Shown: piece after piece, positions 272-21,663 of the stretch
Position numbering within the stretch: position 1 is the first letter of the stretch
Layout: each line of letters begins with the position of its first letter
Virus record (IMG/VR): IMGVR_UViG_3300037076_000014
Location: 1 to 23,565 of that record
Reading direction: 5' to 3' (one strand)
DNA length: 23,565 nt
DNA from: a virus
Notes under the pieces: model-generated
What the model was told of the DNA's origin: nothing
The model's input: the letters and a program-made list of their open reading frames with translations, nothing else
Database searches by the model: none
Translations under genes and position numbers: made by a program

Positions 272-1408
272 TCATTTTCTCCAAATCCACACCACTTTTC
301 CATTATCCCAAAATTTATCATACCCGTTCAATTTCATATTATCCCATTCCGATAATTCTGGATTAAATGTTAACAATTTTTCCTTTAAATTCTTATCTCC
401 TTTAAAAAACATTTTATTATAGATACACTTATAATCGGGACTGATATAATGATAATCGGGCGGCATAATTTTATCAAATTTAAATCCTAAAGTTAAATGA
501 AAATTATCATCTAAAAATCTCTTATTACTATATCCTAAAACTGAACTCGGCTTATATTGAGAAACAAAATAATCAAACAATACTTTAGCACTATTTCCTC
601 TTATAACAATATTTAATAAGTCACAATATCTTAATATTTCCCATTCCACCTTTTTATTAAAGCGGCTCCTTATAAAAGTCATAACCGATACCAATCTATT
701 ATTATGATATAACCCCAACTTAACACCGCTTTTATCTTCTCCATATAAATGATTATTAACTAAAAATTCATTCTTCTCCCTATTATCAATTTTTTTAACA
801 ACACAGTCTGATACATCTATAGTATTACTATTAGGAATTTTTAACATTCTCCTCAACTCCGATTGAACTATTTCTTTATGATCTCGCCATTCATTTTCTA
901 ATATATGAATTAATTGAATTCCATGAAATAAGCATCCATTCGTCTTATTAAGATGATATCTCTTATTCTTCTTCCCACCTATTTCAGAATGCCAATATAA
1001 TCCATTAAATTCAAGAGCTATTTTCTTTTCGGGAAAATAAAAATCTAATTCTTTACCATTTAAAACGGTTCGATCATGTCTCGTTATTAATAGGGGCGGC
1101 ACTAATGAATTTAAAAAATCAAATATATCATTTTCCAATTCAATTATACTTCGGGTGTCTGTTGTAGTTTTTATATTAATAAGAGGGGTATGTAATTTCC
1201 TTATACTCATAGGATGCCCGCCATATTTTGTAAGGAATGTTTTCTTAGAATTTGTGATATTCTTTTTAATTACATCTGTATTATTAGATGCACATTTATG
1301 GGAGCAGTATGTCCGCTGATTTCTTAAATAATAATGTATATTAAAATTCAATTTACATGTTGGGCACGTTTTTGTTATTGTATTTGGAAGTAATTTTAAT
1401 CTTGCCAT
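272..1408 (-). CDS. EDxHD/Vsr-like homing endonuclease with GNAT-like C-terminal domain
   Basis: This 378-residue protein is probably a free-standing homing endonuclease. Residues 15-39 form a zinc site (CPTC, then CSHKC). Around residue 60 is a single copy of a YG-type repeat found in several copies in the paralogue at 3770-5707. Residues 120-172 hold the nuclease core: ELDFYF, then IALEFNGLYWHSE, then IHILENEW. This fits the EDxHD family of Vsr-like homing endonucleases known from phages. Residues about 200-330 resemble a GNAT/Mom-like acyltransferase fold: a KLGLYHNNRLVSVMTF stretch, an SAKVLFDYF helix and a final LGF strand followed by PDYHY. The gene runs against its neighbours and has its own sigma70-like promoter at 1440-1467, so early expression is inferred. 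It converges on the TnpB-like gene with an 18-nt gap. The nuclease call is firm; the acyltransferase resemblance is tentative. Confidence 0.82.
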   Translation of the reverse strand: MARLKLLPNTITKTCPTCKLNFNIHYYLRNQRTYCSHKCASNNTDVIKKNITNSKKTFLTKYGGHPMSIRKLHTPLINIKTTTDTRSIIELENDIFDFLNSLVPPLLITRHDRTVLNGKELDFYFPEKKIALEFNGLYWHSEIGGKKNKRYHLNKTNGCLFHGIQLIHILENEWRDHKEIVQSELRRMLKIPNSNTIDVSDCVVKKIDNREKNEFLVNNHLYGEDKSGVKLGLYHNNRLVSVMTFIRSRFNKKVEWEILRYCDLLNIVIRGNSAKVLFDYFVSQYKPSSVLGYSNKRFLDDNFHLTLGFKFDKIMPPDYHYISPDYKCIYNKMFFKGDKNLKEKLLTFNPELSEWDNMKLNGYDKFWDNGKVVWIWRK

Positions 1409-2845: not shown

Positions 2846-3649
2846 ATGTTTAAATGTAAATTATGTGAATCAGAATTCGAAAAATATAGTTCATTGAGTT
2901 GTCACTCAAATCGGACACATCATATATCAACTGATCAATGTTATGTTGATTATTATTTGAACGGTGTATGGCCACTATGTAAGTGTGGATGTCAAGAAAA
3001 AACTAAATATTCATATGAATTAAAAAGATTTCGAGAATATAAGCAAGGTCATATAGCAAGAATAAAAAATAATTGGGGACATAACAGATCGGCAATTGAA
3101 AAATCATCAGAAACTCGTCGGAAACAATTCATGTCAGGAAAACGGAAAGTTTGGAATGATGGATTAACTATGGATGACCCACGAGTAGCAAATAATATAT
3201 TAAAATTTAAGGAGTCTATAAACTCCAATCCCGCAGAATTGAAGAGGAGATCCGATTTGATGTCAGAAAATAGAAAAAACGGAGTTATACCGACATTATA
3301 TGGGAAAGAGAGTTCTCAATGGAAGGGAGGAATATCAGAAGTTGGTGGAATTGCTAGAAATGATAAGCGGTTATATGACGAGTGGAAATATCCTATTTTA
3401 ATAAGAGATGGTTTTAAATGTGTTATGTGCGGTAGTAGTGACAAATTACATATACACCACGATAAAGAAACTATGAGTGATATTGTTAAAAAGCATATGC
3501 CTGATATTGAAGACATTATCGATTTTGAATTAAAAAAATTAATTGCTGCTAAAATAGTAGATTATCATATAAATAATCCAGTTTCAGCTATCACATTATG
3601 TTCGGAATGTCATAATAATTTACATCCATCGTTAAATTTTAAACATTAA
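2846..3649 (+). CDS. HNH homing endonuclease with N-terminal C2H2 zinc finger
   Basis: This 267-residue protein starts with a C2H2-type finger (C4, C7, H20, H25) and a second Cys-rich knot (CKCGC, 45-49). A basic middle region (about 70-150) leads into GKESSQWKGGIS, a segment often seen just before the HNH module in phage endonucleases. The HNH domain spans 188-260: RDGFKCVMCG (C192, C195), LHIHHD (H202, H204, H205) and LCSECHNNLH (C252, C255, N258, H260). An insertion of about 45 residues separates the two halves. Such proteins nick or cut DNA to spread their own gene. The gene starts in the T-rich tail of one terminator and is closed by another at 3682-3708, so it is a self-contained cassette between tail tube and the next endonuclease. 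No clear promoter of its own is visible. Confidence 0.9.
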   Translation: MFKCKLCESEFEKYSSLSCHSNRTHHISTDQCYVDYYLNGVWPLCKCGCQEKTKYSYELKRFREYKQGHIARIKNNWGHNRSAIEKSSETRRKQFMSGKRKVWNDGLTMDDPRVANNILKFKESINSNPAELKRRSDLMSENRKNGVIPTLYGKESSQWKGGISEVGGIARNDKRLYDEWKYPILIRDGFKCVMCGSSDKLHIHHDKETMSDIVKKHMPDIEDIIDFELKKLIAAKIVDYHINNPVSAITLCSECHNNLHPSLNFKH

Positions 3650-3717: not shown

Positions 3718-3745
3718 TTGACATTTAGAAAACATGATATATACT
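3718..3745 (+). promoter_or_regulatory. Sigma70-like promoter for the large endonuclease gene
   Basis: A perfect TTGACA (3718-3723), a 16-bp spacer and TATACT (3740-3745) lie just after the terminator. A transcript would start near 3752, before the ATG at 3770. An in-frame ATG at 3734 falls inside the promoter and is therefore rejected as the start. Confidence 0.7.
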
Positions 3746-3769
3746 TATATAAGTAACCATTATAAAATT

Positions 3770-5707
3770 ATGTTAACTAAAGAACAAGTTATAGAAATAA
3801 TAAAGAACTCAAAAAGTTCTTATCCTCAAATATTAAAGGCACATCATAAAGAAACTTATGAAGTAATTAATAAATTTTATACTGATGGTAGATTTTCTGA
3901 AAAAGTTTATCGGTGGCTCCATTCTAATGAAATTGTTGGAAGATGTAAAGAATGCAACTTACCAACCAAATTCCTCGATATTGATAATGGATATCGATTA
4001 TATTGTTCTACGAAATGTTCTAATAAAGGAACGGCACCGGACAGGTCTAAAACCTTAATAGAGACCAATAAAGAAAAGCACTATGACTATTACGACAAGA
4101 TTAAATGTGCCGTCTGTGGTAAAGAATTTGAAGCTTTAAAATATAGAGAACAGAAATGTTGTTCGGGAAAATGTTGTGGAATCTATGTTGCGAATTCACC
4201 GAATAGAATGGAAAAAATTAAAGCCACAAAACTAGAGAGATATGGAGATGAAATGTATGTTAATCCCGATAAGGCACGAGAAACGTGTTTGAAACGATAT
4301 GGGGTTGATAATATATTTAAATCTCCAGAAATAAAGGATAAAATAAAAAATATGAATTTAAAAACTTATGGAGTGGAATGGACTTTTCAATCACCAGTAA
4401 TAAAGGAAAAAATTAAATTAACTAATTTAGAACGATATGGTGTGGAAAATCCGGCACAATCATCAGAAATAAAATTAAAAATAAAGGATATAATGAATGA
4501 GAAATATGGAGTTGACAATATTTTTCAACATGAGGAAACTATGAATATGATTTATGCCAATAATATTATTAATTATGGGACAAAGATTCCAGTTAACTGC
4601 GAAGAATTGCAACAACAAGTTATTCGTAAATCATATGATAAAGCGTATCATAGAAATGTTGACCGTTTATCTGATACCCACGAATTTTTATTTTCAGTTG
4701 AAGAGTATCATGGCCTAGAAGGAATGTATAAATTTAAGTGTAAAAAATGCAATACTAAATTTGAGGATCATATGGACGGAAACGGTCATCCGAGATGTTT
4801 AATTTGCAATCCCTTTATTGCCGGATTTAGTTTGGATGAAGTTGAATTATGTGATTATGTTAAATTATTAGTTGGAGATAGTAACGTAGTAGAAAATGAT
4901 CGATCTATACTAGGAGGTCTGGAACTTGATATTTATGTCCCTTCAAAAATGGTTGCAATTGAATATAATGGATTATATTGGCATAGTGAACATAGCGGAC
5001 AAAAGCCCAAGCGGTATCATAAAAATAAAACGGAATTATGTGAATCGAAAGGAATACGTCTTATCCATATATTTGAAGATGAGTGGCAACAGAAAAAGAA
5101 TATTGTTAAGAGTAAAATTAAGCATATTCTTCAGGATAATTTGAAAGAAGTTGCTATCTATGCTAGAAAATGTATTATTAAACCCATTGATGATTGTAAA
5201 GAATTAATGATGAATAATCATATTCAAGGAAATTGTCCTGCCGCCATTAAATTAGGAGCCTTTTATAATGATGAATTAGTTGCTGCCATGACCCTTGGAA
5301 ATCGACGAGTAGCAATGGGGAAGAAAACAAGTGCTGTTGGAGAATATGAATTATTAAGATTTGCTACAACGAAACGAGTTGTTGGTATAGCCAGTAAATT
5401 AATGTCATATTTTATAAAAACATATAATCCCAATAAGATTACGACTTATGCTGACCGACGTTGGAGTGTTGGTAAATTATATGAAAATATTGGATTTACG
5501 TTGGTAAGTAAAACGGAACCCAATTATTATTATTTTAAAGTTGGTGAGACGAGAAGGTGGCATCGTTTTAATTTCAGAAAGGATCAATTACCTAAGAGAT
5601 TATCAAAATTTGATATTAATTTGACGGAATGGGAAAACTGCAAAGCGGATGGGTATGATAGAATTTGGGATAGTGGAAATATTAAATATGAATGGAATAA
5701 GGCGTAA
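3770..5707 (+). CDS. Large EDxHD/Vsr-like homing endonuclease with zinc sites, YGV repeats and GNAT-like domain
   Basis: A 645-residue protein when started at ATG 3770. An N-terminal part of about 150 residues carries two Cys clusters (CKEC/CSTKC at 59-83; CAVC/CCSGKCC at 113-136). Residues 154-275 are tandem repeats of 23 residues, each with a (R/K/T)YGV core, probably helical DNA-binding units. A third zinc site (CKKC, CLIC) lies at 324-346. The nuclease core is at 385-440: ELDIYV, VAIEYNGLYWHSE, YHKNKTELC and IHIFEDEW, matching the EDxHD/Vsr-like family. Residues about 465-590 look GNAT/Mom-like: KLGAFYNDELVAAMTLG, VGIASKLMSYF and TTYADRRWSVGKLYENIGF. The protein at 272-1408 is a smaller paralogue with one repeat. 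It has its own sigma70-like promoter and no Shine-Dalgarno sequence. Whether the acyltransferase-like part is active is unknown. Confidence 0.85.
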   Translation: MLTKEQVIEIIKNSKSSYPQILKAHHKETYEVINKFYTDGRFSEKVYRWLHSNEIVGRCKECNLPTKFLDIDNGYRLYCSTKCSNKGTAPDRSKTLIETNKEKHYDYYDKIKCAVCGKEFEALKYREQKCCSGKCCGIYVANSPNRMEKIKATKLERYGDEMYVNPDKARETCLKRYGVDNIFKSPEIKDKIKNMNLKTYGVEWTFQSPVIKEKIKLTNLERYGVENPAQSSEIKLKIKDIMNEKYGVDNIFQHEETMNMIYANNIINYGTKIPVNCEELQQQVIRKSYDKAYHRNVDRLSDTHEFLFSVEEYHGLEGMYKFKCKKCNTKFEDHMDGNGHPRCLICNPFIAGFSLDEVELCDYVKLLVGDSNVVENDRSILGGLELDIYVPSKMVAIEYNGLYWHSEHSGQKPKRYHKNKTELCESKGIRLIHIFEDEWQQKKNIVKSKIKHILQDNLKEVAIYARKCIIKPIDDCKELMMNNHIQGNCPAAIKLGAFYNDELVAAMTLGNRRVAMGKKTSAVGEYELLRFATTKRVVGIASKLMSYFIKTYNPNKITTYADRRWSVGKLYENIGFTLVSKTEPNYYYFKVGETRRWHRFNFRKDQLPKRLSKFDINLTEWENCKADGYDRIWDSGNIKYEWNKA

Positions 5708-5723
5708 AAATAATTTATTCTAT

Positions 5724-5873
5724 ATGGAAACTAAAAAAGATATATCACGCATTCCGAATGGGTTATATTGTTATACTTGGAAAGAACTTCCCACATCCGA
5801 TAATAATTTTAAAGGAAAAATTAACAGGTGTCCTTATTTCGAAGATAAGAATATAGAGGACTATATTAATTAA
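5724..5873 (+). CDS. Small phage protein with GLYCY and CPYF motifs
   Basis: This is a 49-residue ORF. The ATG at 5724 is preferred over an in-frame ATG at 5649 that would overlap the endonuclease gene. The features seen are IPNGLYCYTW near the start and INRCPYF near the end, a layout like small conserved phage proteins of unknown function; the two Cys might bind metal. It sits 16 nt after the endonuclease gene and may share its transcript. No function is proposed. Confidence 0.55.
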   Translation: METKKDISRIPNGLYCYTWKELPTSDNNFKGKINRCPYFEDKNIEDYIN

Positions 5874-5909
5874 TTTGGTGCTTTTTTGTTGATATAATGG
5901 AATATTGAT

Positions 5910-5919
5910 TATATTTATA
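5910..5919 (+). promoter_or_regulatory. Late-type TATATTTATA box
   Basis: A perfect copy of the recurrent box ends 23 nt before the ATG at 5943. It would start the block of genes 5943-7701. This copy would leave a short leader, unlike those at 9234 and 12475. Confidence 0.45.
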
Positions 5920-5942
5920 CTTATAACTTTACAACCATTATT

Positions 5943-7073
5943 ATGAAAATACAAAAACAACTTTTAGAATCCCTTATTCGTGTCTGTGCCAAAGAAGTAT
6001 TGGCTCAATTAAATGAAGGCAAGAAGAAATCAAAAAAATGTAAATGTGGCAAGCAATTACTTATGGGTGCCACGGAATGTAAAGACTGTATGGAAGAGGC
6101 TGGATTAACCAGTGAAGGAAAAAAGAATTGGATACAGAAGGCCATTAAGAAGCCGGGTGCCCTCCATAAACAATTAAACGTTCCTACCGATGAAAAGATT
6201 CCGACTTCTAAATTGAATGCGGCGGGCGGAAAGTTAGGAAAACGTGCTAATTTAGCAAAAACTTTAAAAGGCTTACATGAAGAAGATGGGGAAGATGAAA
6301 TTGATACTGAAGAAGATGAAAATGATATTTGCCCGACCTGTAATGGTAGCGGAGAAGGAATGGCCGATGGATTAAGATGTTCCGACTGTAAAGGTTCAGG
6401 AAGCACTCGCAGAGGTAAATTAAGTAAACGAAACGATCCGGATTATGATTGGGATTCTGAGAGAGAAGATGATGAAAAAAATTGGGGTGGAATAGACGAG
6501 GAGGATAGTAATACAGTTGGTGCTCCTCAATCTGGAAGTGGAGAATCGGTCGATATTGAAACAGAAAGACCTGAAGTTGATAGTGAACCATCCGAAAAAG
6601 AAACTCCTCAAAAGAAAGAAAAATTACAAGGATTAGTATTACTTTCACCTGATGGTTCCACGAGAAATATTCCTATTCGCATGTTTCCAAGTGAATCAGA
6701 TATAGAAAAAACTTTGCACCGCATTGGAGCAAATTTAGCTGGTAATAAAGTAAAAGTATCATTGGCGGCATTAAGAACTATAAAAACAAATTTAAAATCA
6801 GGTAAACCTATTTATTGCTATCTAGGAACGTTATCGGATGAGGCCGAGGAATTGTTTGTATTTGCCAATACTAATTTAAATGCAGCAAAAGAGGAAATGG
6901 CTCCAATTGAGAAAATTAAAGGAGAAGATGTTGGCGATGCAACTGAAAAATACAACAACGACCAAACAGTAAATAATGATGATGAATTATTAGCCAAACG
7001 AATGGCGGGTGAAGATAAACCTAATATTGATAGAGAAATTGGGTATGATGACAGTGAAACTGGACAAGATTAA
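5943..7073 (+). CDS. Probable virion-associated protein with zinc ribbons and acidic linker
   Basis: A 376-residue protein of unknown exact role. Residues 5-24 form an amphipathic helix (LLESLIRVCAKEVLAQLNE) like that of the next gene. Residues 33-49 hold a Cys cluster (CKCG, CKDC). Residues 70-111 contain the GALHKQLNVP, KIPTSKL, GGKLGKRANLAKTL signature, which is common in hypothetical proteins of large phages. Residues 130-153 are a DnaJ-type zinc module (CPTCNGSGEG, CSDCKGSGS). A long acidic, Ser/Pro-rich linker (about 165-225) leads to a compact C-terminal domain (about 227-310). The context is a late-type box upstream and virion genes downstream, so a structural or assembly role is inferred. 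The zinc module does not by itself make it a chaperone. Confidence 0.75.
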   Translation: MKIQKQLLESLIRVCAKEVLAQLNEGKKKSKKCKCGKQLLMGATECKDCMEEAGLTSEGKKNWIQKAIKKPGALHKQLNVPTDEKIPTSKLNAAGGKLGKRANLAKTLKGLHEEDGEDEIDTEEDENDICPTCNGSGEGMADGLRCSDCKGSGSTRRGKLSKRNDPDYDWDSEREDDEKNWGGIDEEDSNTVGAPQSGSGESVDIETERPEVDSEPSEKETPQKKEKLQGLVLLSPDGSTRNIPIRMFPSESDIEKTLHRIGANLAGNKVKVSLAALRTIKTNLKSGKPIYCYLGTLSDEAEELFVFANTNLNAAKEEMAPIEKIKGEDVGDATEKYNNDQTVNNDDELLAKRMAGEDKPNIDREIGYDDSETGQD

Positions 7074-9233: not shown

Positions 9234-9243
9234 TATATTTATA
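9234..9243 (+). promoter_or_regulatory. Late-type TATATTTATA box, 4 nt before the tape measure ATG
   Basis: A perfect box followed by GTGT and then ATG at 9248. There is no room for a Shine-Dalgarno sequence, so a leaderless transcript is predicted if the box is a -10-like late promoter. Confidence 0.55.
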
Positions 9244-9247
9244 GTGT

Positions 9248-11593
9248 ATGGCAACAGAAACCAACCAATTTGGCTATACCAAGGCTACCACCGACGAAAT
9301 AGCCAATGCAAATAGGCTATTGAAAGATCAATCCGATCCGTTGGCTGATATATTAAGCCTTACCGAGAAAATTAACTTAGGTTGGAAAAATACTATCAAA
9401 ATTCAAGGGGAATTGGAAGGTCAACTCCAGAAAACACATTTGGAGATTTTACGGGCACAGTTAATGGTTCAATCATCTAATGCAACAGAACAAGCCGAAG
9501 GCAGAATCATTTTAAAATCAATAACTCAAAGAAAATCAGAACTTGAAAAAGAATTGGGAATGTTAAGAGTTATCAATTCGTCTGGCCTTGCTCCTATGTT
9601 ATTTTTATGGATAGAAATGTGGAAATTATTCAAGGAAATGGATAAAGCAACAGTTGAGTTTAATATGCATTTAGGAATGATGCGTAGTTCAACTGAAAAA
9701 ATACAACAATATTCGCAGAAAATAGCAATTGATTATATGAATGTTGGAGTTAATATTGGAATAGTATTAAAATCAGTTGAAGCATTGGGAGAAGTATCTG
9801 GGGGAATTAAGAATGTATCATTAGAAATATTAAAAACTACATCACTATTAAACGCTCAATTAGGAATTAGTCAAGAAACTTCTGCTGGATTTTTTAGAAA
9901 TATGGCTGCTATTTCCGGAACGTCTATGGAAAGTCAGCAGAATATGGCCGGATATGCTGTTGCGTTGTCAAATGCGGCTGGCACAAATTTAAATCAAGTA
10001 ATGTCAGATTTGGCTAGTAAGTCATCTAATACGTTGATGTTATTAAGTCATATCCCTGAAATAGCAATTAAATCGGCAGTCGAATTTAGAAAATTAGGAA
10101 CTTCATTAGATGCGGTTGCCGATGGTGCTGCTCATATATTGAATTTTACTTCAAGTATTCAAGAGGAAATGGAAGCATCAGTCCTCATTGGGCACAGCCT
10201 CAATATGCAGACGGCTCGTCAAAAAGCATATATGGGAGATTTGGTTGGTTATAATAGAGAAGTATTAAAATTGGCTCAACAAAATCATTTTCTAAATGGA
10301 ATGGATATGTTTCAAAAACAGGCATTTGCAAATATGACTGGAAAATCAGTAGCAGATTTAACGGCAATGGTTCAAGCCGAAAAAGAATTAACAGACGCTA
10401 AGAGTAGTTCTAATGCAGAAATTAGAGCGGCAGCAACTGAGTATGAAAGATTAAGAGATTTAAATAAAGAAGCGGCTAAAGATGAAGGTGCTAAGATGTT
10501 GTTATCAATGCAAACCAAATCCAATCAAGAAAGAATGGTTGCTATTCAACAAAAATGGAATCAGCTAGTTGCTCAGATAATGCCTCCTTTATTAAAAATA
10601 ACTGATTGGGCATTATCAATTGTTCCTCCGTTATTACCGTTACTTACATTATTTGGCGGATTGATATATGGTGTTGGCGTGTTTGGTAAGACGTTAGATT
10701 TAATCGGCACAAAACTTACTTCTGTATATGGTCTAGCGTCGAAATTAGGACAGTGGGGATATAGCATGACACATTATGGAATGCGAATATTGAATATATT
10801 TACAGACGTTGGAAGATTTTTTAGCACGATAGGAACAAAAGCATCGTCAATTTTGGGAATTTTTGGATCAGTTGGAAAACTTGGGTCTGTTTTAGGAACA
10901 TTTGCTGAATTTTTAGGACCTATAGGATTCGTAATAACTGCGGTCACGTCTTTATTTGCTATATTCAGTGATTTTGGAAATACTAAAGGTAGAGGTATTG
11001 GATTTCGTATAGCCCATGCAATCTTCGCAGGAATAGAATCGGTAATAGATCCTATATTAAAACTTTTATTGTGGCCATTTGAAGGTGCTTATAAATGGTT
11101 AATGGAGAAGTGTGGACTTGTCGGACACTCACCATCAAAACTAGGTCTCTCAATTGTAAAAGGAATAATATCAGTTGGTGCCATGTTATATGATGCATTA
11201 ACATATCCCTTTCGTCATGCTTTTGCATGGATATTAGATCATATACCCGGAATGGGAAAAGTAGCATCTGGATTAAGAGATGGATTTGGTGGAGTTGCTA
11301 CAACTATAAATCATAAATTAGATGGTATAGGTAATAATGAAATTAAACCATCAGATAAATCAACAGTTACGGCAGAAGTATCAAAGAATGTAAAGGAACA
11401 AGTAGTTGCTACTAAAGAACAAAAGGATACTAGTGGAGATACTAATGCGTTATTACAAGGAGTAATAGATGCTATTGCCGGATTAAGAAAAGATTTGAAT
11501 GATGGTAAAATTTCTATCAATTTGGATGGTAGCCGAGTTTCTACTTATTTAGCCCGTTCTGATGCGTATAAAGGTTCCTTTAGTAGTCATTAA
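9248..11593 (+). CDS. Tail tape measure protein
   Basis: A 781-residue protein. Residues 30-110 and 370-445 are charged and likely coiled coils; the middle is Ala/Ser/Met-rich helical. Hydrophobic stretches occur at about 447-480 (MPPLLK, IVPPLLPLLTLFGGLIYGVGVFG) and 556-575 (LGPIGFVITAVTSLFAIF). Near 624-665 is GLVGHSPSKLGLSIVKGI, a GxxSPSK element typical of tape measure proteins, followed by a repeated Gly/hydrophobic stretch. Such proteins fill the tail tube and fix tail length; at about 1.5 angstrom per residue this one would fit a tail of roughly 115 nm. The context agrees: gp26-like gene upstream, baseplate genes downstream. Its stop overlaps the stop of the minus-strand gene at 11590 by 4 bases (TTAA). 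No terminator lies between them. Confidence 0.85.
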   Translation: MATETNQFGYTKATTDEIANANRLLKDQSDPLADILSLTEKINLGWKNTIKIQGELEGQLQKTHLEILRAQLMVQSSNATEQAEGRIILKSITQRKSELEKELGMLRVINSSGLAPMLFLWIEMWKLFKEMDKATVEFNMHLGMMRSSTEKIQQYSQKIAIDYMNVGVNIGIVLKSVEALGEVSGGIKNVSLEILKTTSLLNAQLGISQETSAGFFRNMAAISGTSMESQQNMAGYAVALSNAAGTNLNQVMSDLASKSSNTLMLLSHIPEIAIKSAVEFRKLGTSLDAVADGAAHILNFTSSIQEEMEASVLIGHSLNMQTARQKAYMGDLVGYNREVLKLAQQNHFLNGMDMFQKQAFANMTGKSVADLTAMVQAEKELTDAKSSSNAEIRAAATEYERLRDLNKEAAKDEGAKMLLSMQTKSNQERMVAIQQKWNQLVAQIMPPLLKITDWALSIVPPLLPLLTLFGGLIYGVGVFGKTLDLIGTKLTSVYGLASKLGQWGYSMTHYGMRILNIFTDVGRFFSTIGTKASSILGIFGSVGKLGSVLGTFAEFLGPIGFVITAVTSLFAIFSDFGNTKGRGIGFRIAHAIFAGIESVIDPILKLLLWPFEGAYKWLMEKCGLVGHSPSKLGLSIVKGIISVGAMLYDALTYPFRHAFAWILDHIPGMGKVASGLRDGFGGVATTINHKLDGIGNNEIKPSDKSTVTAEVSKNVKEQVVATKEQKDTSGDTNALLQGVIDAIAGLRKDLNDGKISINLDGSRVSTYLARSDAYKGSFSSH

Positions 11594-12345
11594 TCCATTA
11601 AAAGTTTCTTATTATTTTTCAAGTAATAATCTTCGATTAACATTTTAACATGTTCTTCATTAATTTTTAGTTTAAAATCGGTTAAATTTTCATCTCTAAG
11701 TCCCTTTGCATATAGATCCACTATTCCAAGTTTTTCAAGTTCTGCCGCAATTATCTTAGACATACGTTCAATTGTTCGATTGTTTCGTTCTATTGTCAGT
11801 CCACCCTTTCCAACATCATTAAAACGTTCCATATTGAAGGGAGTTCCGTAGGGAATATTTTCGGAATTAGTTAATAGTCGGAAATGTAACATTTGGAATG
11901 ATTCGTAAGTTTGTCCCGTTTTTTCATTTTTAAAGATGACGTATTTTTTATTAAGGGGATCAGAGTTTTCAATTCGGGTAATTTTTTCGGTTAACGGAAT
12001 ATGAGTTACTGCTCCTATTCCCATATCAAGTCCAATAAATTTAACTTCAAAATAAGAATTGCCGGATGTTATAAAATCTTCAACTATATTCCTTATCATT
12101 TGATCTTGATCTATCGTTACATAAAATAAGTTAAATAAATGCAATTCATTGGTTGAATTTTTATCTATAATAGACATGGTCGGATTATATTCCGATGATT
12201 TTCGAGAAGAAATGGCATTTAATAATGCCCGATCTGCCCAGTCCGTTAAACTTAAACATTTTTCTTTGCAATATCCTTGCAAGACATCCATCGTAGTTTT
12301 ACTGATATTTAAGACCCGACGAGTTGATTTTTTATTATTTTTCAT
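11590..12345 (-). CDS. Ribbon-helix-helix domain fused to portal (gp20-like) fragments
   Basis: A 251-residue protein on the strand opposite to the tail genes. Residues 8-46 fit a ribbon-helix-helix DNA-binding domain: RRVLNIS strand, TTMDVLQGYCKEKC helix, LSLTDWADRALLNAI helix. Residues 79-174 look like part of a T4-type portal protein: IVEDFITSGNSYFEVKF, IPLTEKITRIENSDPLNKKY, TYESFQMLHFRL and NIPYGTPFNMERF. Residues 197-243 (KIIAAELEKLGIVDLYAKG, DENLTDFKLKIN) resemble the C-terminal region of such portals. The part between is missing, so this cannot be a working portal. A chimera from a duplicated portal gene is inferred. It is preceded by a late-type TATATGTATA box 4 nt from its ATG. Possible roles are regulation, interference with portal assembly in competing phages, or decay. 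Confidence 0.6.
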   Translation of the reverse strand: MKNNKKSTRRVLNISKTTMDVLQGYCKEKCLSLTDWADRALLNAISSRKSSEYNPTMSIIDKNSTNELHLFNLFYVTIDQDQMIRNIVEDFITSGNSYFEVKFIGLDMGIGAVTHIPLTEKITRIENSDPLNKKYVIFKNEKTGQTYESFQMLHFRLLTNSENIPYGTPFNMERFNDVGKGGLTIERNNRTIERMSKIIAAELEKLGIVDLYAKGLRDENLTDFKLKINEEHVKMLIEDYYLKNNKKLLMD

Positions 12346-12349
12346 ATTC

Positions 12350-12359
12350 TATACATATA
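12350..12359 (-). promoter_or_regulatory. Late-type TATATGTATA box for the portal-like chimera
   Basis: Read on the minus strand the box ends 4 nt (GAAT) before the ATG at 12345. The rest of this spacer (to 12488) is AT-rich and holds only the box for the next plus-strand gene. Confidence 0.5.
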
Positions 12360-12474: not shown

Positions 12475-12484
12475 TATATTTATA
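12475..12484 (+). promoter_or_regulatory. Late-type TATATTTATA box, 4 nt before ATG 12489
   Basis: A perfect box followed by TAAT and ATG. The spacing is identical to that at the tape measure gene. Confidence 0.55.
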
Positions 12485-12488
12485 TAAT

Positions 12489-14822
12489 ATGGCAGAAAGT
12501 ATCCAACAACTAACCTCTATATCACCAAGTCAACCCGGTAATATTCAGAATGTGTGGAGTAAAACGAATGGTCAATTATATCATAAATTGAGTCCTTATA
12601 CGAATGATAGTGGTTTAATCGCTTGGGGTAATGAACCTTACAATTATGTTTTCCCAGATAAAACTAATGCGTTTCTCAATGGTAAGTATGATTCATTCTC
12701 ACTACCAATAGGCTCGGCAGCAAGCGATGTAATGCGTATGGGACGTTTCATAACGTCAGGAAAAGGAGTTCTCTTTCTTGCCAAGAATCTACTTTTACAA
12801 ACGGGAAATGCATTCAACGAAACTCGGCTATATTCACCAACAGAAGTATTAGTATCTGCTGCTCGGCCTGCAACTTTGGGTCTAATAAACCGTCCTACTC
12901 GTCATATAGATATATCTGGGGGTGGATTAATGGGAATATTAGGTTCCTTAGTAGGAATAGGAAGTGAAAATTCTAATCAACCATCCGGAACTGTCAATGG
13001 TCCTAGTGATGACACAGTATTCAATAAATCTCCATTATCGTCTAATGGAGAATATATATCAACGGAAACTAGAGGATTATCTCGTGCCGGAACTGCTAAT
13101 GCTGGATTGGCTAATTTTAATAGTAAATGGGTAGGTAAACAATCTGGTGCCGGATTTTTTGGTTCGTTATTTGCTAATTTCATACCGGCAACACAGGATG
13201 GAATAATTTATAAATCTTGTGAGGGTGCTTATGGGTCGATGATTTCAAACAACCTCAGACTAAAATATACAGATGTGAGTGGGTGTTATATGAAGCATTA
13301 CCAAAAATGGATTGCAGGTGGAAAAATAATGCGTCCAAAGGATGAAGATTCAAATGTGAATGTGACGTTTTTTGCGGATGCGTATCCACTCGGCGGATTT
13401 CATAGTGGAGACATATCAGATGGCAATACTCGAATACTTACAATGCCAAAAGTGGCACCTAAGAATGTAGATGGAATTGGAAGTGTTGGGTTTATGCGGG
13501 TAAAAAGTTCTAATACCAACATTTCCGGTATACGATATGGAGATAATATTGGAGCCGATAGTAATCCTAATAATGGTCCATATGAAGCATCAGAAATTAT
13601 GGTTCAGTATGGATTATTTGTAGACCCCAAAAAAGAATATGCGAGTAAAAAGATAGATAAGAAATCTGTAGATGCACAAAACAGTTTATTAAAATCTGTA
13701 ATAAATGATATAAATAATACCAGTGATAAATTATATACTATTACTGTTCCGAAGGATTCTAGAATAATAGGAAGTGGACAATCAACTGATAATGGGTATA
13801 ATAGATTATTCAAAACTAGCATTCAAAGCACAAGCACCAACACAAATACGAAGACGGGTATTAATTATCCAATAGGAGTATTATCAAGTTATAGATCAGC
13901 TAGTATCATGATGGTTAGCGATGATTTGTCGGGACCAAAAAAATCCCTACGAATGCCATCTTCTAATAATTTTGATGCTATAAATACATTAAAGGTTATA
14001 AATAGTGATTCGTTCGGTCCGTCTGGTCTTAGTGATTTAGATAATATTGGGTGGTTAGAAACAAAATGGAGTCCATATCAACATGACCAAATAGCATTTT
14101 ATTTTTATGATATAGTTAATCAGAATTATATTCCCTTTCGTGCTACTATAACAGGAATATCGGAAGGTGGTGGGGCAGAATGGGAAGCTCTATCATTTAT
14201 AGGTCGTGCCGATAAAGTATATTCTTATAATGGATTTACAAGAACGTTATCATTTAAATTTTCTGTTCACATTTCAAGTATAGCAGAACTTGCTCCAACT
14301 TGGCAAAGAATAAATTATTTATCAACATTGATTAAACCTTCAAATTATACGACTGATACAGTAGCGAAAAATGCTTCGGTAGATGGTTCTAAATCTAAAA
14401 ATAATATAACAAATAGATTCATGATACCACCAATGGTTATGTTAAATGTTGGTGATGTGTATAGAGACCAACCCGTTATAATAACTCAAGTTGGAATTGC
14501 AATACCGGAAGATGCATCATGGGAAACTTTGAATGAAGATAATACTAGTGAAAGCGATGTTGATGGAAATAAGATTTGGAATTATCTTGCTAAAAATATA
14601 CAATCCAATAAAGGAATGAATTTCGGTCAACTTCCAAGAACAGTTGATATATCATTAACAATGAATTTATTAGAAAAAGAACAACCAATTGCTGGTGGAG
14701 CAAATTTCGGACATGCTCCGAGAAATAGCATATTTAAAACAAATGATTGGAATATTAATACACCTGATAATTCTAAAATAACCGATTTCAATAAGAATTT
14801 GGTGGTTGATGTAAATAAATAA
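12489..14822 (+). CDS. Large tail/baseplate structural protein
   Basis: A 777-residue protein. An N-terminal part contains MRMGRFITSGKGVLFLAKNLLLQ (about 81-104), followed by Gly/Ser/Asn-rich low-complexity stretches (about 145-205). A more ordered C-terminal region (about 535-625) contains IPFRATITGISEGGGAEWE, FIGRADKVYSYNGFTRTLSFKFSV and LAPTWQRINYLSTLIKPSNY. This combination resembles inner baseplate or tail-tip proteins that work with a LysM partner in contractile systems. A LysM-like gene does follow after 4 nt. No transmembrane segments or enzyme motifs were seen. The exact T4 counterpart is not clear, so only a structural role next to the tube and baseplate hub is proposed. Confidence 0.7.
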   Translation: MAESIQQLTSISPSQPGNIQNVWSKTNGQLYHKLSPYTNDSGLIAWGNEPYNYVFPDKTNAFLNGKYDSFSLPIGSAASDVMRMGRFITSGKGVLFLAKNLLLQTGNAFNETRLYSPTEVLVSAARPATLGLINRPTRHIDISGGGLMGILGSLVGIGSENSNQPSGTVNGPSDDTVFNKSPLSSNGEYISTETRGLSRAGTANAGLANFNSKWVGKQSGAGFFGSLFANFIPATQDGIIYKSCEGAYGSMISNNLRLKYTDVSGCYMKHYQKWIAGGKIMRPKDEDSNVNVTFFADAYPLGGFHSGDISDGNTRILTMPKVAPKNVDGIGSVGFMRVKSSNTNISGIRYGDNIGADSNPNNGPYEASEIMVQYGLFVDPKKEYASKKIDKKSVDAQNSLLKSVINDINNTSDKLYTITVPKDSRIIGSGQSTDNGYNRLFKTSIQSTSTNTNTKTGINYPIGVLSSYRSASIMMVSDDLSGPKKSLRMPSSNNFDAINTLKVINSDSFGPSGLSDLDNIGWLETKWSPYQHDQIAFYFYDIVNQNYIPFRATITGISEGGGAEWEALSFIGRADKVYSYNGFTRTLSFKFSVHISSIAELAPTWQRINYLSTLIKPSNYTTDTVAKNASVDGSKSKNNITNRFMIPPMVMLNVGDVYRDQPVIITQVGIAIPEDASWETLNEDNTSESDVDGNKIWNYLAKNIQSNKGMNFGQLPRTVDISLTMNLLEKEQPIAGGANFGHAPRNSIFKTNDWNINTPDNSKITDFNKNLVVDVNK

Positions 14823-15129: not shown

Positions 15130-15158
15130 AAATATTTTCACGATTTTTGTTTTCACTT

Positions 15159-15168
15159 GATATGTATA
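15159..15168 (+). promoter_or_regulatory. Late-type GATATGTATA box, 3 nt before an endonuclease ATG
   Basis: GATATGTATA matches the box at all but the first base and ends 3 nt before ATG 15172. An in-frame TTG at 15157 lies just upstream and is not used as the start. The box probably once served the hub gene that now begins at 16182. Confidence 0.45.
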
Positions 15169-15171
15169 TAC

Positions 15172-16185
15172 ATGAACAGTCAACAATCTAATATGAAAGA
15201 ACAAGTTATATGGGAAGAAAAAAACTCCACCGAACCATTGCAGAATTGCGAGAACAATCAAACAATCGTTCCAAACGATACTACCAACGAAATAAAGAAC
15301 AAATTTGTGAAGGGCGAATGCAACGATACTGGAAAGAAGTGGGTAAAAAAATGCCCTGAATGTGGGGGAGAGATGAGGTATAGTAGCGAGCCGTCTCTAA
15401 AACGTTCTATTAAAAATAATAGTATATGTAATAAATGTTATGCAAATTCACTTAGATTACCACCTCAAACAGATGGATGGACAAGGAGTTGCCCCGAATG
15501 CGGTGATAGTATTATTTTTGCTTCACAGGGTTGTTGGTATAATTCTAAAAAAATTAATAGTAAGTGTAAAAAGTGTCGGGTCAATGCACGTAGATTACAA
15601 ATTCCAATAAATGGATGGAGCCGAGAATGTCCATCGTGCAAAAATACGGTTATATATACACAAAAAAGTCATTTAAAATATGCAAATAAACACAATTCTA
15701 TTTGTCGAGATTGTTTTGAGATGTCCAAAATGCCCATTGGTGGATGGGTAAAGATATGTCCTGAATGTAAGGAAACTCAAATATACGGCACTAAAAAATC
15801 ATTGGATGCGGCAATAAAAAATAATAGTTCATGTAATGATTGCGCTGCGAAAATATGTGGTGCCTATTTGACGACACGATATAATCCCAGCGCATGTGTT
15901 TTTATGGATACTTATGGTAGTCTGAATGGATACATATTTCAGCATGCCAAAAATATTCGAGAGTATCAAGTCGGGCGATATTTTTTGGATGGATATGATA
16001 AAGACAAGAATGTCGTATTTGAATATGATGAACAACATCATTTTAGAGGCGGGAAGTTGATGCCAAAAGATATAGTCCGACAATCTAAAATTATTGAATT
16101 GATTCGTCCAACTGCATTTTTTAGATATAATGAACCTAAGAAAATATTAACCGAAGTAATAAGTGGGAAAGAAATCAAATTATGA
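15172..16185 (+). CDS. Homing endonuclease with four tandem zinc ribbons
   Basis: A 337-residue protein. After a polar N-terminus come four zinc ribbons with identical internal spacing (CxxC, 21 residues, CxxC): C61/64-C86/89, C107/110-C132/135, C153/156-C178/181 and C196/199-C221/224. Each starts with W(V/T/S)(K/R)xCPxC and has a similar IY/IF strand, so they are internal duplications, 46, 46 and 43 residues apart. The C-terminal part (about 240-325) is a Vsr-like or PD-(D/E)xK nuclease core: YFLDGYD, VVFEYDEQHH, IVRQSKIIELI, FFRYN. It is related to the endonuclease at 1503-2291, which has one ribbon. The ribbons probably set DNA specificity. Its TGA overlaps the ATG of the hub gene (ATGA), so it is inserted exactly upstream of that gene. 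Confidence 0.8.
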   Translation: MNSQQSNMKEQVIWEEKNSTEPLQNCENNQTIVPNDTTNEIKNKFVKGECNDTGKKWVKKCPECGGEMRYSSEPSLKRSIKNNSICNKCYANSLRLPPQTDGWTRSCPECGDSIIFASQGCWYNSKKINSKCKKCRVNARRLQIPINGWSRECPSCKNTVIYTQKSHLKYANKHNSICRDCFEMSKMPIGGWVKICPECKETQIYGTKKSLDAAIKNNSSCNDCAAKICGAYLTTRYNPSACVFMDTYGSLNGYIFQHAKNIREYQVGRYFLDGYDKDKNVVFEYDEQHHFRGGKLMPKDIVRQSKIIELIRPTAFFRYNEPKKILTEVISGKEIKL

Positions 16186-18943: not shown

Positions 18944-20296
18944 ATGGTTGAAAATTCTAAAGATTTAGAAGATTTTATCTCCTCAATTGGAGATAATGAT
19001 GAATTGTTTTTACATCCTATTTTATCAGATACTAAAATCCATCCGGCGCAGAATAAAATAAGTGTAATTTTCATCAAACATAAGAAAAAAACTTATTGGT
19101 TATCTTTTAATCATCCCGATTCGATTTGTGATGATGATACTAAATTGATGTTTATAAATTTCATACAGAATTCAAAAAATATAAAGTGGGTAGTTGATAA
19201 AAAATCATTTTTACAGATACTACCATGTAATAATTTGAAGGATATTAATTTGAGTAAGTATTTAACGAATAATACTACTATTAATATGGAAGAATATTCA
19301 ACATCGGCTCATGATTTTATTTATCGACAGTATCAATCATTTCCTAATATTAATTTGTCAATTCCTCTTTTAAAACATTTAGAATTATTTGAGGAATTAT
19401 ATGATGATGTAAAATCAACCATTAAAAAATTCGTAATAGACGATAAAGCATATGACTCTGTTAATGATATTATTATTCCAACTTTAAGTATGGTTGAGAG
19501 AAATGGCGTTTATGTTGACCCCACCATTTTTAAGGATAAGTATGATAAATTACCGGATAAAGATAATTTAGTTTATACGAGATATAACTTATGGACTTCA
19601 ACAGGAAGACCTTCTAATGCCTTTGATGGTATAAATTATGCTGCCATTAAAAAAGAAGATGGATCAAGAAATGCCTTTAAATCTCGTTATGGTAAGGATG
19701 GATCAATGGTATTGATTGACTACACTTCGTTTTTTCCACATATAATTTGCTGGTTGACTAAACACTTCTTACCGGTAGGAACTGATATATATGCTTATTT
19801 AGCAGGATTATATTTCCAAGTAAAAGAACCAACCCCCGAACAAATTAAAGAAGCCAAGACAATTACTTTCCGACAATTATTCGGTGGCATTGAAGAGAAG
19901 TATTCTCATATTAAATACTTTAAAAATCTAAAAGGATATATGGACGAACAGTGGGAATTCTTCCAAAAAAATAATTATATTGAAACTCCCTTATTTAAAA
20001 GAAAAATAAGCTCGGCACACATTCAAGAACCAAGCTCTCATAAAATATTTAATTATATTTTACAGGCTACAGAAGGAGAAATAGCAATATCTCGATTGAA
20101 AGAGGTATTGATATATTTAAAAAATAAGAGAACGATTCCCGTTTTGTATACTTATGATAGCGTGTTATATGATTTTTATAAGCCAGACGGTTATGAATTG
20201 CTCGATGAAATTTACAAAATAATGAGCTTTGATAATATATTCCCGATGAAAATATATGACGGAAATTCTTATGGAGAATTGATGTTGAAATATTAA
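18944..20296 (+). CDS. Compact family A (PolA-type) DNA polymerase
   Basis: A 450-residue protein, about half the size of E. coli Pol I. Residues 1-165 look like a worn-down 3'-5' exonuclease fold without the usual acidic residues. Residues 170-195 (IIIPTLSMVERNGVYVD) match the segment before the thumb, but the thumb itself is almost absent. The polymerase core is well kept: STGRPS (R222), motif A MVLIDYTSFFPHI (D259), helix O AKTITFRQLFGG (K305, F309, F313), NYILQ (N370, Q374, equivalent to N845 and Q849 of Pol I) and motif C LYTYDSVLYD (D405). In motif C the usual HDE is YDS, so the second acid is replaced by Ser406. Both metal-binding Asp are present, so catalysis is plausible. It starts the replication block and has its own sigma70-like promoter. 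Confidence 0.85.
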   Translation: MVENSKDLEDFISSIGDNDELFLHPILSDTKIHPAQNKISVIFIKHKKKTYWLSFNHPDSICDDDTKLMFINFIQNSKNIKWVVDKKSFLQILPCNNLKDINLSKYLTNNTTINMEEYSTSAHDFIYRQYQSFPNINLSIPLLKHLELFEELYDDVKSTIKKFVIDDKAYDSVNDIIIPTLSMVERNGVYVDPTIFKDKYDKLPDKDNLVYTRYNLWTSTGRPSNAFDGINYAAIKKEDGSRNAFKSRYGKDGSMVLIDYTSFFPHIICWLTKHFLPVGTDIYAYLAGLYFQVKEPTPEQIKEAKTITFRQLFGGIEEKYSHIKYFKNLKGYMDEQWEFFQKNNYIETPLFKRKISSAHIQEPSSHKIFNYILQATEGEIAISRLKEVLIYLKNKRTIPVLYTYDSVLYDFYKPDGYELLDEIYKIMSFDNIFPMKIYDGNSYGELMLKY

Positions 20297-20953: not shown

Positions 20954-20963
20954 TATATTTATA
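20954..20963 (+). promoter_or_regulatory. Late-type TATATTTATA box, 6 nt before ATG 20970
   Basis: A perfect copy of the box; the 6-nt gap again leaves no room for a Shine-Dalgarno sequence. Confidence 0.5.
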
Positions 20964-21653: not shown

Positions 21654-21663
21654 GATATTTATA
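21654..21663 (+). promoter_or_regulatory. Late-type GATATTTATA box, 7 nt before ATG 21671
   Basis: It matches the box at all but the first base and lies in the 23-nt gap between two genes. Confidence 0.45.

Follow-up and report, generated by a model that had tools for sequence, protein, structure and literature searches.

A 251-amino-acid protein encoded antisense among the tail genes of a T4-type phage is, on sequence evidence, a single domain of the portal protein, the wing, without the stem, clip, tunnel loop, and crown. Its gene (ORF P0001, positions 11590 to 12345, minus strand) lies on a metagenomic contig of 23,565 nucleotides, analyzed here in full as the window. The portal is known as a machine of 12 subunits whose wing, stem, clip, and crown work jointly; a single portal domain that is maintained and expressed late would, if this assignment is true, mean that the wing is usable alone. 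We tentatively read the product as a late portal-wing decoy or as a regulator of portal and prohead assembly, a plausible role that we hold to be short of probable.

Portal homology and domain composition

A profile of 82 T4-type portals matched the 251-residue protein with an E value of 9e-19 in a search space of one sequence, scoring 53 bits against 7 bits for the best of 2000 shuffles. When the A6 portal profile was run on the window, the ORF was matched at 2.6e-12 and 8.5e-4; the curated Pfam model PF07230 did not reach the ORF protein. Phage portals were the sole matches in tblastn searches with the protein. Residues 179 to 228 are 42% identical to gp20 of Flavobacterium phage immuto and residues 51 to 167 are 28% identical to the portal of LR756508, with other portals matching residues 70 to 167, and the portal of Microcystis phage Mel-JY01 matches both regions. 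The C-terminal 200 residues thus match two stretches that lie apart in T4-type portals, and the order of the stretches is unchanged; the two separate matches and the deletion of the part between them had been predicted. Profiles of the two regions matched at 26.4 bits (E value 4e-10, wing segment 1) and 52 bits (E value 3e-18, wing segment 2), and 0 of 1000 shuffles were as good in either case.

The borders of these regions were placed on T4 gp20 by a mapping anchored on the equivalence of Mel-JY01 residue 229 and T4 residue 255. In T4 gp20, the wing spans residues 70-254 and 378-450, the stem 255-278 and 359-377, the clip 279-358, the tunnel loop 374-398, and the crown 451-524 (PMC4493910). 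The ORF begins with a non-portal N-terminal domain (residues 1-51; 12193-12345, minus strand), which is ribbon-helix-helix-like by sequence pattern only. Wing segment 1 (residues 52-167; 11845-12192, minus strand) corresponds to Mel-JY01 residues ~111-224 and extends to about T4 residue 250, just short of the stem; its start near T4 residue 105 comes from a weak alignment. An 11-residue linker, TPFNMERFNDV (residues 168-178; 11812-11844, minus strand), replaces the stem-clip-stem portion and the tunnel loop, and the alignments indicate that ~135 portal residues are missing at this point. Wing segment 2 (residues 179-231; 11653-11811, minus strand) corresponds to Mel-JY01 residues ~360-412 and T4 residues ~392-450, from helix alpha-8 onward. 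It begins at about T4 residue 392, where the tunnel loop ends and just ahead of that helix, and its match ends at about T4 residues 445-450, the end of the wing. A short C-terminal tail (residues 232-251; 11593-11652, minus strand) stands in the absence of the crown domain.

Profiles of the other portal parts agree with this assignment. The stem and clip profile scored 4.3 bits on the C-terminal piece, which is shuffle level (19 of 1000 shuffles were as good), and left the whole protein unmatched. The crown profile also left the protein unmatched, and portal similarity ends where the crown would begin. The portal N-terminus profile found no match in the protein, ruling out that the N-terminus is a remnant of the portal N-terminus. 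Because both segment borders fall at the limits of the wing, the sequence points to one portal domain rather than two random fragments, and this wing-only composition goes further than the earlier description of two portal regions. The protein is homologous across both wing segments to the T4 gp20 family (PF07230/phrog_213), including the immuto and Mel-JY01 portals, and has the motifs PYG, GK, RT.ER, EL, and LY..G in common with it. It differs from these portals in length (251 versus ~620 amino acids), in lacking the N-terminal arm as well as the stem, clip, tunnel loop, and crown, and in having a new N-terminus, an antisense orientation, and a location among tail genes.

An AlphaFold model of the whole protein is of moderate confidence (mean pLDDT 60, pTM 0.54). 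Strands are abundant in its middle part and are followed by a long helix at residues 181-213, similar to helix alpha-8 of T4 gp20, which has 30 residues (PMC4493910). Most of the top structure matches in BFVD are annotated as portals or portal-like phage proteins (E values of 4e-3 to 1e-1, the best of them 4e-3 to 1e-2), matches in the PDB are weak and mixed and include a few portals, and neither database yielded a match at an E value of 0.001 or below. The model agrees with a portal wing as a matter of consistency only, because the alignment from which it was made contains portals and it is not independent of them.

Genomic context

The contig is a 23.5-kb piece of a T4-type phage genome. Its tube protein (49% to 56%) and hub protein (44% to 52%) are identical at these levels to those of Flavobacterium phage immuto and IMG/VR relatives, and its gene order (tube, hub, tape measure, and further tail genes) is that of immuto. 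The phage's own portal gene is absent from the 23.5-kb contig. The 3' end of the ORF shares 4 bp with the convergent tape-measure gene (9248-11593, plus strand), and the next tail gene lies beyond the ORF (12489-14822, plus strand). In 34 relatives, the slot between these two tail genes usually holds a small sense ORF, of ~70 to 130 amino acids in most of them (34 loci among L090-L169; immuto35A_234), and an antisense gene of at least 100 amino acids occurs in 0 of the 34. The window is without the small sense ORF and has the antisense ORF in its place. Given this difference in the content of the slot, the ORF seems to have been inserted, or to have replaced the usual gene, in its own lineage only.

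Five homing-endonuclease-like or related ORFs are present among the tail genes of the window (272-1408 on the minus strand, 1482-2291, 2846-3649, 3734-5707, and 15157-16185). The ORF at 1482-2291 contains NUMOD3 and the one at 3734-5707 contains DUF7487; relative L128 is matched by both 272-1408 and 3734-5707. Directly after the tail genes, positions 18944-20296 encode a 450-residue protein that is weakly similar to family-A DNA polymerases (PF00476 below the cut-off; phrog_17), and related proteins occur in L107, L148, and LR756508.

Probable late promoter sequences

The sequence ATATGTATA is located at 12350-12358 on the minus strand, 4 nt ahead of the ATG of the ORF. A late-type box of its own had been part of the original prediction, and this part stands; the TATAAATA that had been cited as the box (12477-12484, minus strand) is the neighbor's box reversed, being the reverse complement within the plus-strand ATATTTATA box (12476-12484) of the next tail gene. 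We examined 398 tail-gene starts in relatives for these sequences. In the sense direction, 129 of them have ATATTTATA in the 40 nt ahead of the start, with 2.4 expected, and 13 have the ATATGTATA variant there (0.38 expected, a 34-fold enrichment). Upstream of the same 398 starts, TATAAATA is not enriched (3 versus 3.65 expected). All five ATATTTATA sites in the window precede genes (5911-5919, 9235-9243, 12476-12484, 20955-20963, and 21655-21663, plus strand). From its position upstream of gene starts, ATATTTATA is a strong candidate for the late promoter in this group of T4-like phages, and probably serves as such. The spacing of 4 nt between box and ATG is common to the ORF, both flanking tail genes, and 11 cases in relatives, and transcripts starting from such boxes would be almost leaderless. 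Copies of ATATTTATA are also present in L090-L169 and L007, often with a T-rich stretch ahead. The core of ATATTTATA is TATTTATA, which corresponds to the T4 late box TATAAATA in reverse complement.

The location among tail genes, with a box and spacing as in the neighbors, would suit a minor structural part, for example an adaptor or plug in the head or tail that resembles the wing and has replaced the usual small sense gene, which is missing here and present in most of the 34 relatives. However, the ORF is oriented opposite to the surrounding virion genes, and we regard such a structural role as very unlikely.

Coding status and divergence

The original prediction of an intact antisense frame over 11590-12345 was borne out, and an open frame of 251 codons has a chance probability of ~4e-10 in DNA of this composition. 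The in-frame codon score of the ORF is 0.223, compared with 0.24 to 0.37 for nearly all core genes and 0.04 to 0.20 for the endonuclease-like genes, and it shows no break between the parts of the ORF. A score based on synonymous choice only did not separate core from endonuclease-like genes. The two ends of the ORF share a 17-nt direct repeat (coding for KNNKK), which was set aside, being equalled in 2 of 100 shuffles.

The ORF has diverged from portals beyond the range seen among the portals of these phages. Identity to portals is 21% to 29% in wing segment 1 and 41% to 51% in wing segment 2; the portals are 51% to 78% and 69% to 89% identical among themselves in the same segments. The ORF retains 30 of the 64 wing residues that are invariant in portals, which indicates that it is no longer under portal-type constraint. 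In a neutral simulation that assumes most of the divergence to have come after duplication, 8 of 4000 copies were free of stops at 70% identity and 0 of 4000 at 60%; post-duplication divergence was estimated from the portals of relatives because the contig does not include the portal of this phage. The ORF looks like a functional gene, because its codon usage is native-like, no neutral copy stayed stop-free at 60% identity, and it has its own late box. The earlier argument that the intact frame speaks for selection therefore holds, and strong divergence without a stop disfavors the earlier suggestion of a recent fusion that is being lost. The ORF is known from a single metagenomic contig, in one instance.

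The N-terminal domain

A ribbon-helix-helix (RHH) DNA-binding domain had been proposed for the N-terminus, and database searches did not confirm it. With hmmscan, residues 1 to 50 had no match in Pfam or NCBIfam, RHH families included, residues 1 to 51 had no sequence match in the PDB, and a PF01402 search of the window gave no match. The N-terminus is matched by phrog_2727, of unknown function, at an E value of 0.011 only; this family was rejected as an RHH lead, its relatives among the phages examined being uninformative. No relatives of the N-terminus were found in plasmids, and those in phages were chance-level matches only.

The structural models of this part disagree. AlphaFold with the portal alignment, in which the portal rows had been trimmed so that the N-terminal part was unaligned, predicts helices at residues 16-28 and 33-49 with RHH spacing, without a beta strand and at low confidence; residues 1 to 51 folded alone form one helix (3-49). 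The likeness to RHH proteins of the Arc/CopG type (PF01402) consists of predicted secondary-structure spacing and pattern in residues 8-49, whereas there is no significant sequence or family match and the fold is unsupported when predicted alone. An RHH domain is possible, if unproven.

If such a domain dimerizes, the protein may be a DNA-binding regulator in which the wing acts as a sensor of free portal or prohead, linking head assembly to late transcription. The spacing of residues 8-49 in the aligned model (strand-like 8-14, helices 16-28 and 33-49) and the weak phrog_2727 match are in keeping with this idea. The lack of an RHH family or PDB match and the single helix predicted for the N-terminus alone count against it, and late expression suits a regulator less, making this a quite unlikely explanation. 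In the decoy or assembly-regulator reading that we prefer, an RHH fold of residues 1-51 would make the protein dimeric and able to bind DNA as well, which is unproven.

Proposed role in head assembly

We propose that an ancestral T4-type portal gene was copied, on the opposite strand, into the interval that separates the tape-measure gene from the tail gene after it. Stem (the channel), clip (docking of terminase and neck), tunnel loop, and crown would then have disappeared from the copy, which would have acquired 51 new N-terminal residues and a late promoter. The wing of T4 gp20 is the main contact with the capsid shell and the clip is the docking site of the terminase (PMC4493910). A protein that has the wing but neither stem nor clip would therefore be unable to conduct DNA or dock the motor, and binding to head proteins would still be possible. 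Since the clip is absent, docking on terminase, as had been suggested for this protein, appears unlikely. If the two wing segments fold together, the remaining wing may be a protein-interaction module that binds portal subunits, the major capsid protein, or scaffold, and so may modulate assembly by tuning or blocking the initiation of portal and prohead in this phage or in a relative that infects the same cell. Such a protein would be a natural reagent for studying portal-ring and prohead initiation, and perhaps a natural inhibitor of that initiation.

A rival explanation, raised already with the original prediction, is that the wing fragment acts against competitors, as a dominant negative that poisons portal rings or the start of prohead formation in related phages or satellites sharing the cell, with the phage's own portal having diverged to escape poisoning. 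The ORF lacks every part that a working portal needs and keeps the wing, has a late box, and diverges fast, all of which would fit. However, the literature searched yielded no portal-fragment inhibitor and no account of a comparable protein made from part of a portal, the protein matched no PADLOC model of known anti-phage defense proteins (E value up to 10), and it occurs once. We know of no interference phenotype or comparable system for such a fragment, and consider the anti-competitor function somewhat unlikely.

In their mode of action, satellite capsid-hijacking proteins (a PLE protein of V. cholerae and rcm of SaPIpT1028) resemble the proposed decoy as small proteins that interfere with or redirect head assembly. 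The likeness is proposed for the mode of action only; these proteins act on coat or capsid and are encoded by satellites, and the abstracts describing them do not mention derivation from a portal, unlike the portal-derived ORF.

Related fusions and portal inteins

Looking for the same fusion in related phages had been suggested with the original prediction, and none was found among the matches listed. Peptide patterns searched in viral and genome contig collections gave no fusion relatives among the matches listed, and tblastn against 50,697 phage records detected no homologous fusion. Where a contig carried a related portal or hub gene, portals were all that was found. In a portal-alignment scan of the best 80 of 338 relatives, the portal ORFs examined are full-length except at contig ends and in L074. 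Patterns for adjacent wing segments 1 and 2 also gave no such fusion among the matches listed; the candidates were rejected, one as an intein-bearing piece, one as a chance match, and the others as ordinary portals matched out of frame or at a wrong position. The fusion is likely rare. The L074 portal is split into two ORFs (4858-6306 and 6310-6768, 483 and 153 amino acids), for which a frameshift, a stop codon within the frame, and an error in sequencing are possible causes.

The portal segment missing from the ORF sits between two intein sites of related portals, one after PYG[KR], seen in LR756508 and L310, and one after GK, seen in LR756508 and L302. The borders of the missing segment fit these sites to about two residues, and the GK is kept in the ORF. 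The insertion sites of intein-bearing portals (LR756508.1; IMG/VR 3300007735_000803 and 3300044961_000149) thus bound the missing segment, but these are portals with inserts, whereas the ORF has an 11-residue linker and no intein sequence, a Pfam scan of it (E value up to 10) finding no intein family. The match of borders and intein sites is possibly a coincidence, since conserved motifs are where inteins sit and also where domains meet.

These sites, the many homing-endonuclease-like genes of the window, and the occurrence of the ORF as a singleton would fit a reading of the ORF as debris, a by-product of homing or intein recombination (a deletion between two portal intein sites) that is still open and being lost. 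This origin is unlikely in view of the native codon usage, the own late box, and the lack of stop-free neutral copies (0 of 4000) at 60% identity. Intein-site borders would, if causal, mean that mobile elements carved a new gene from an essential one. It is distinctly unlikely, and offered as speculation, that the ORF represents a class of late wing-only decoys that were cut at ancestral intein sites, acquired a new and possibly DNA-binding N-terminus, and sabotage or control portal-ring and prohead initiation.

Inteins or intein-like inserts were observed at three or more sites in T4-type portals, namely after PYG[KR], after GK, and between RNM and CKYGD. The loci carrying them are L003 (3608-7768), L310, L302, and L237/L254. 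LR756508 has three intein-splicing matches within one portal, and the portal intein of L302 carries an HNH domain.
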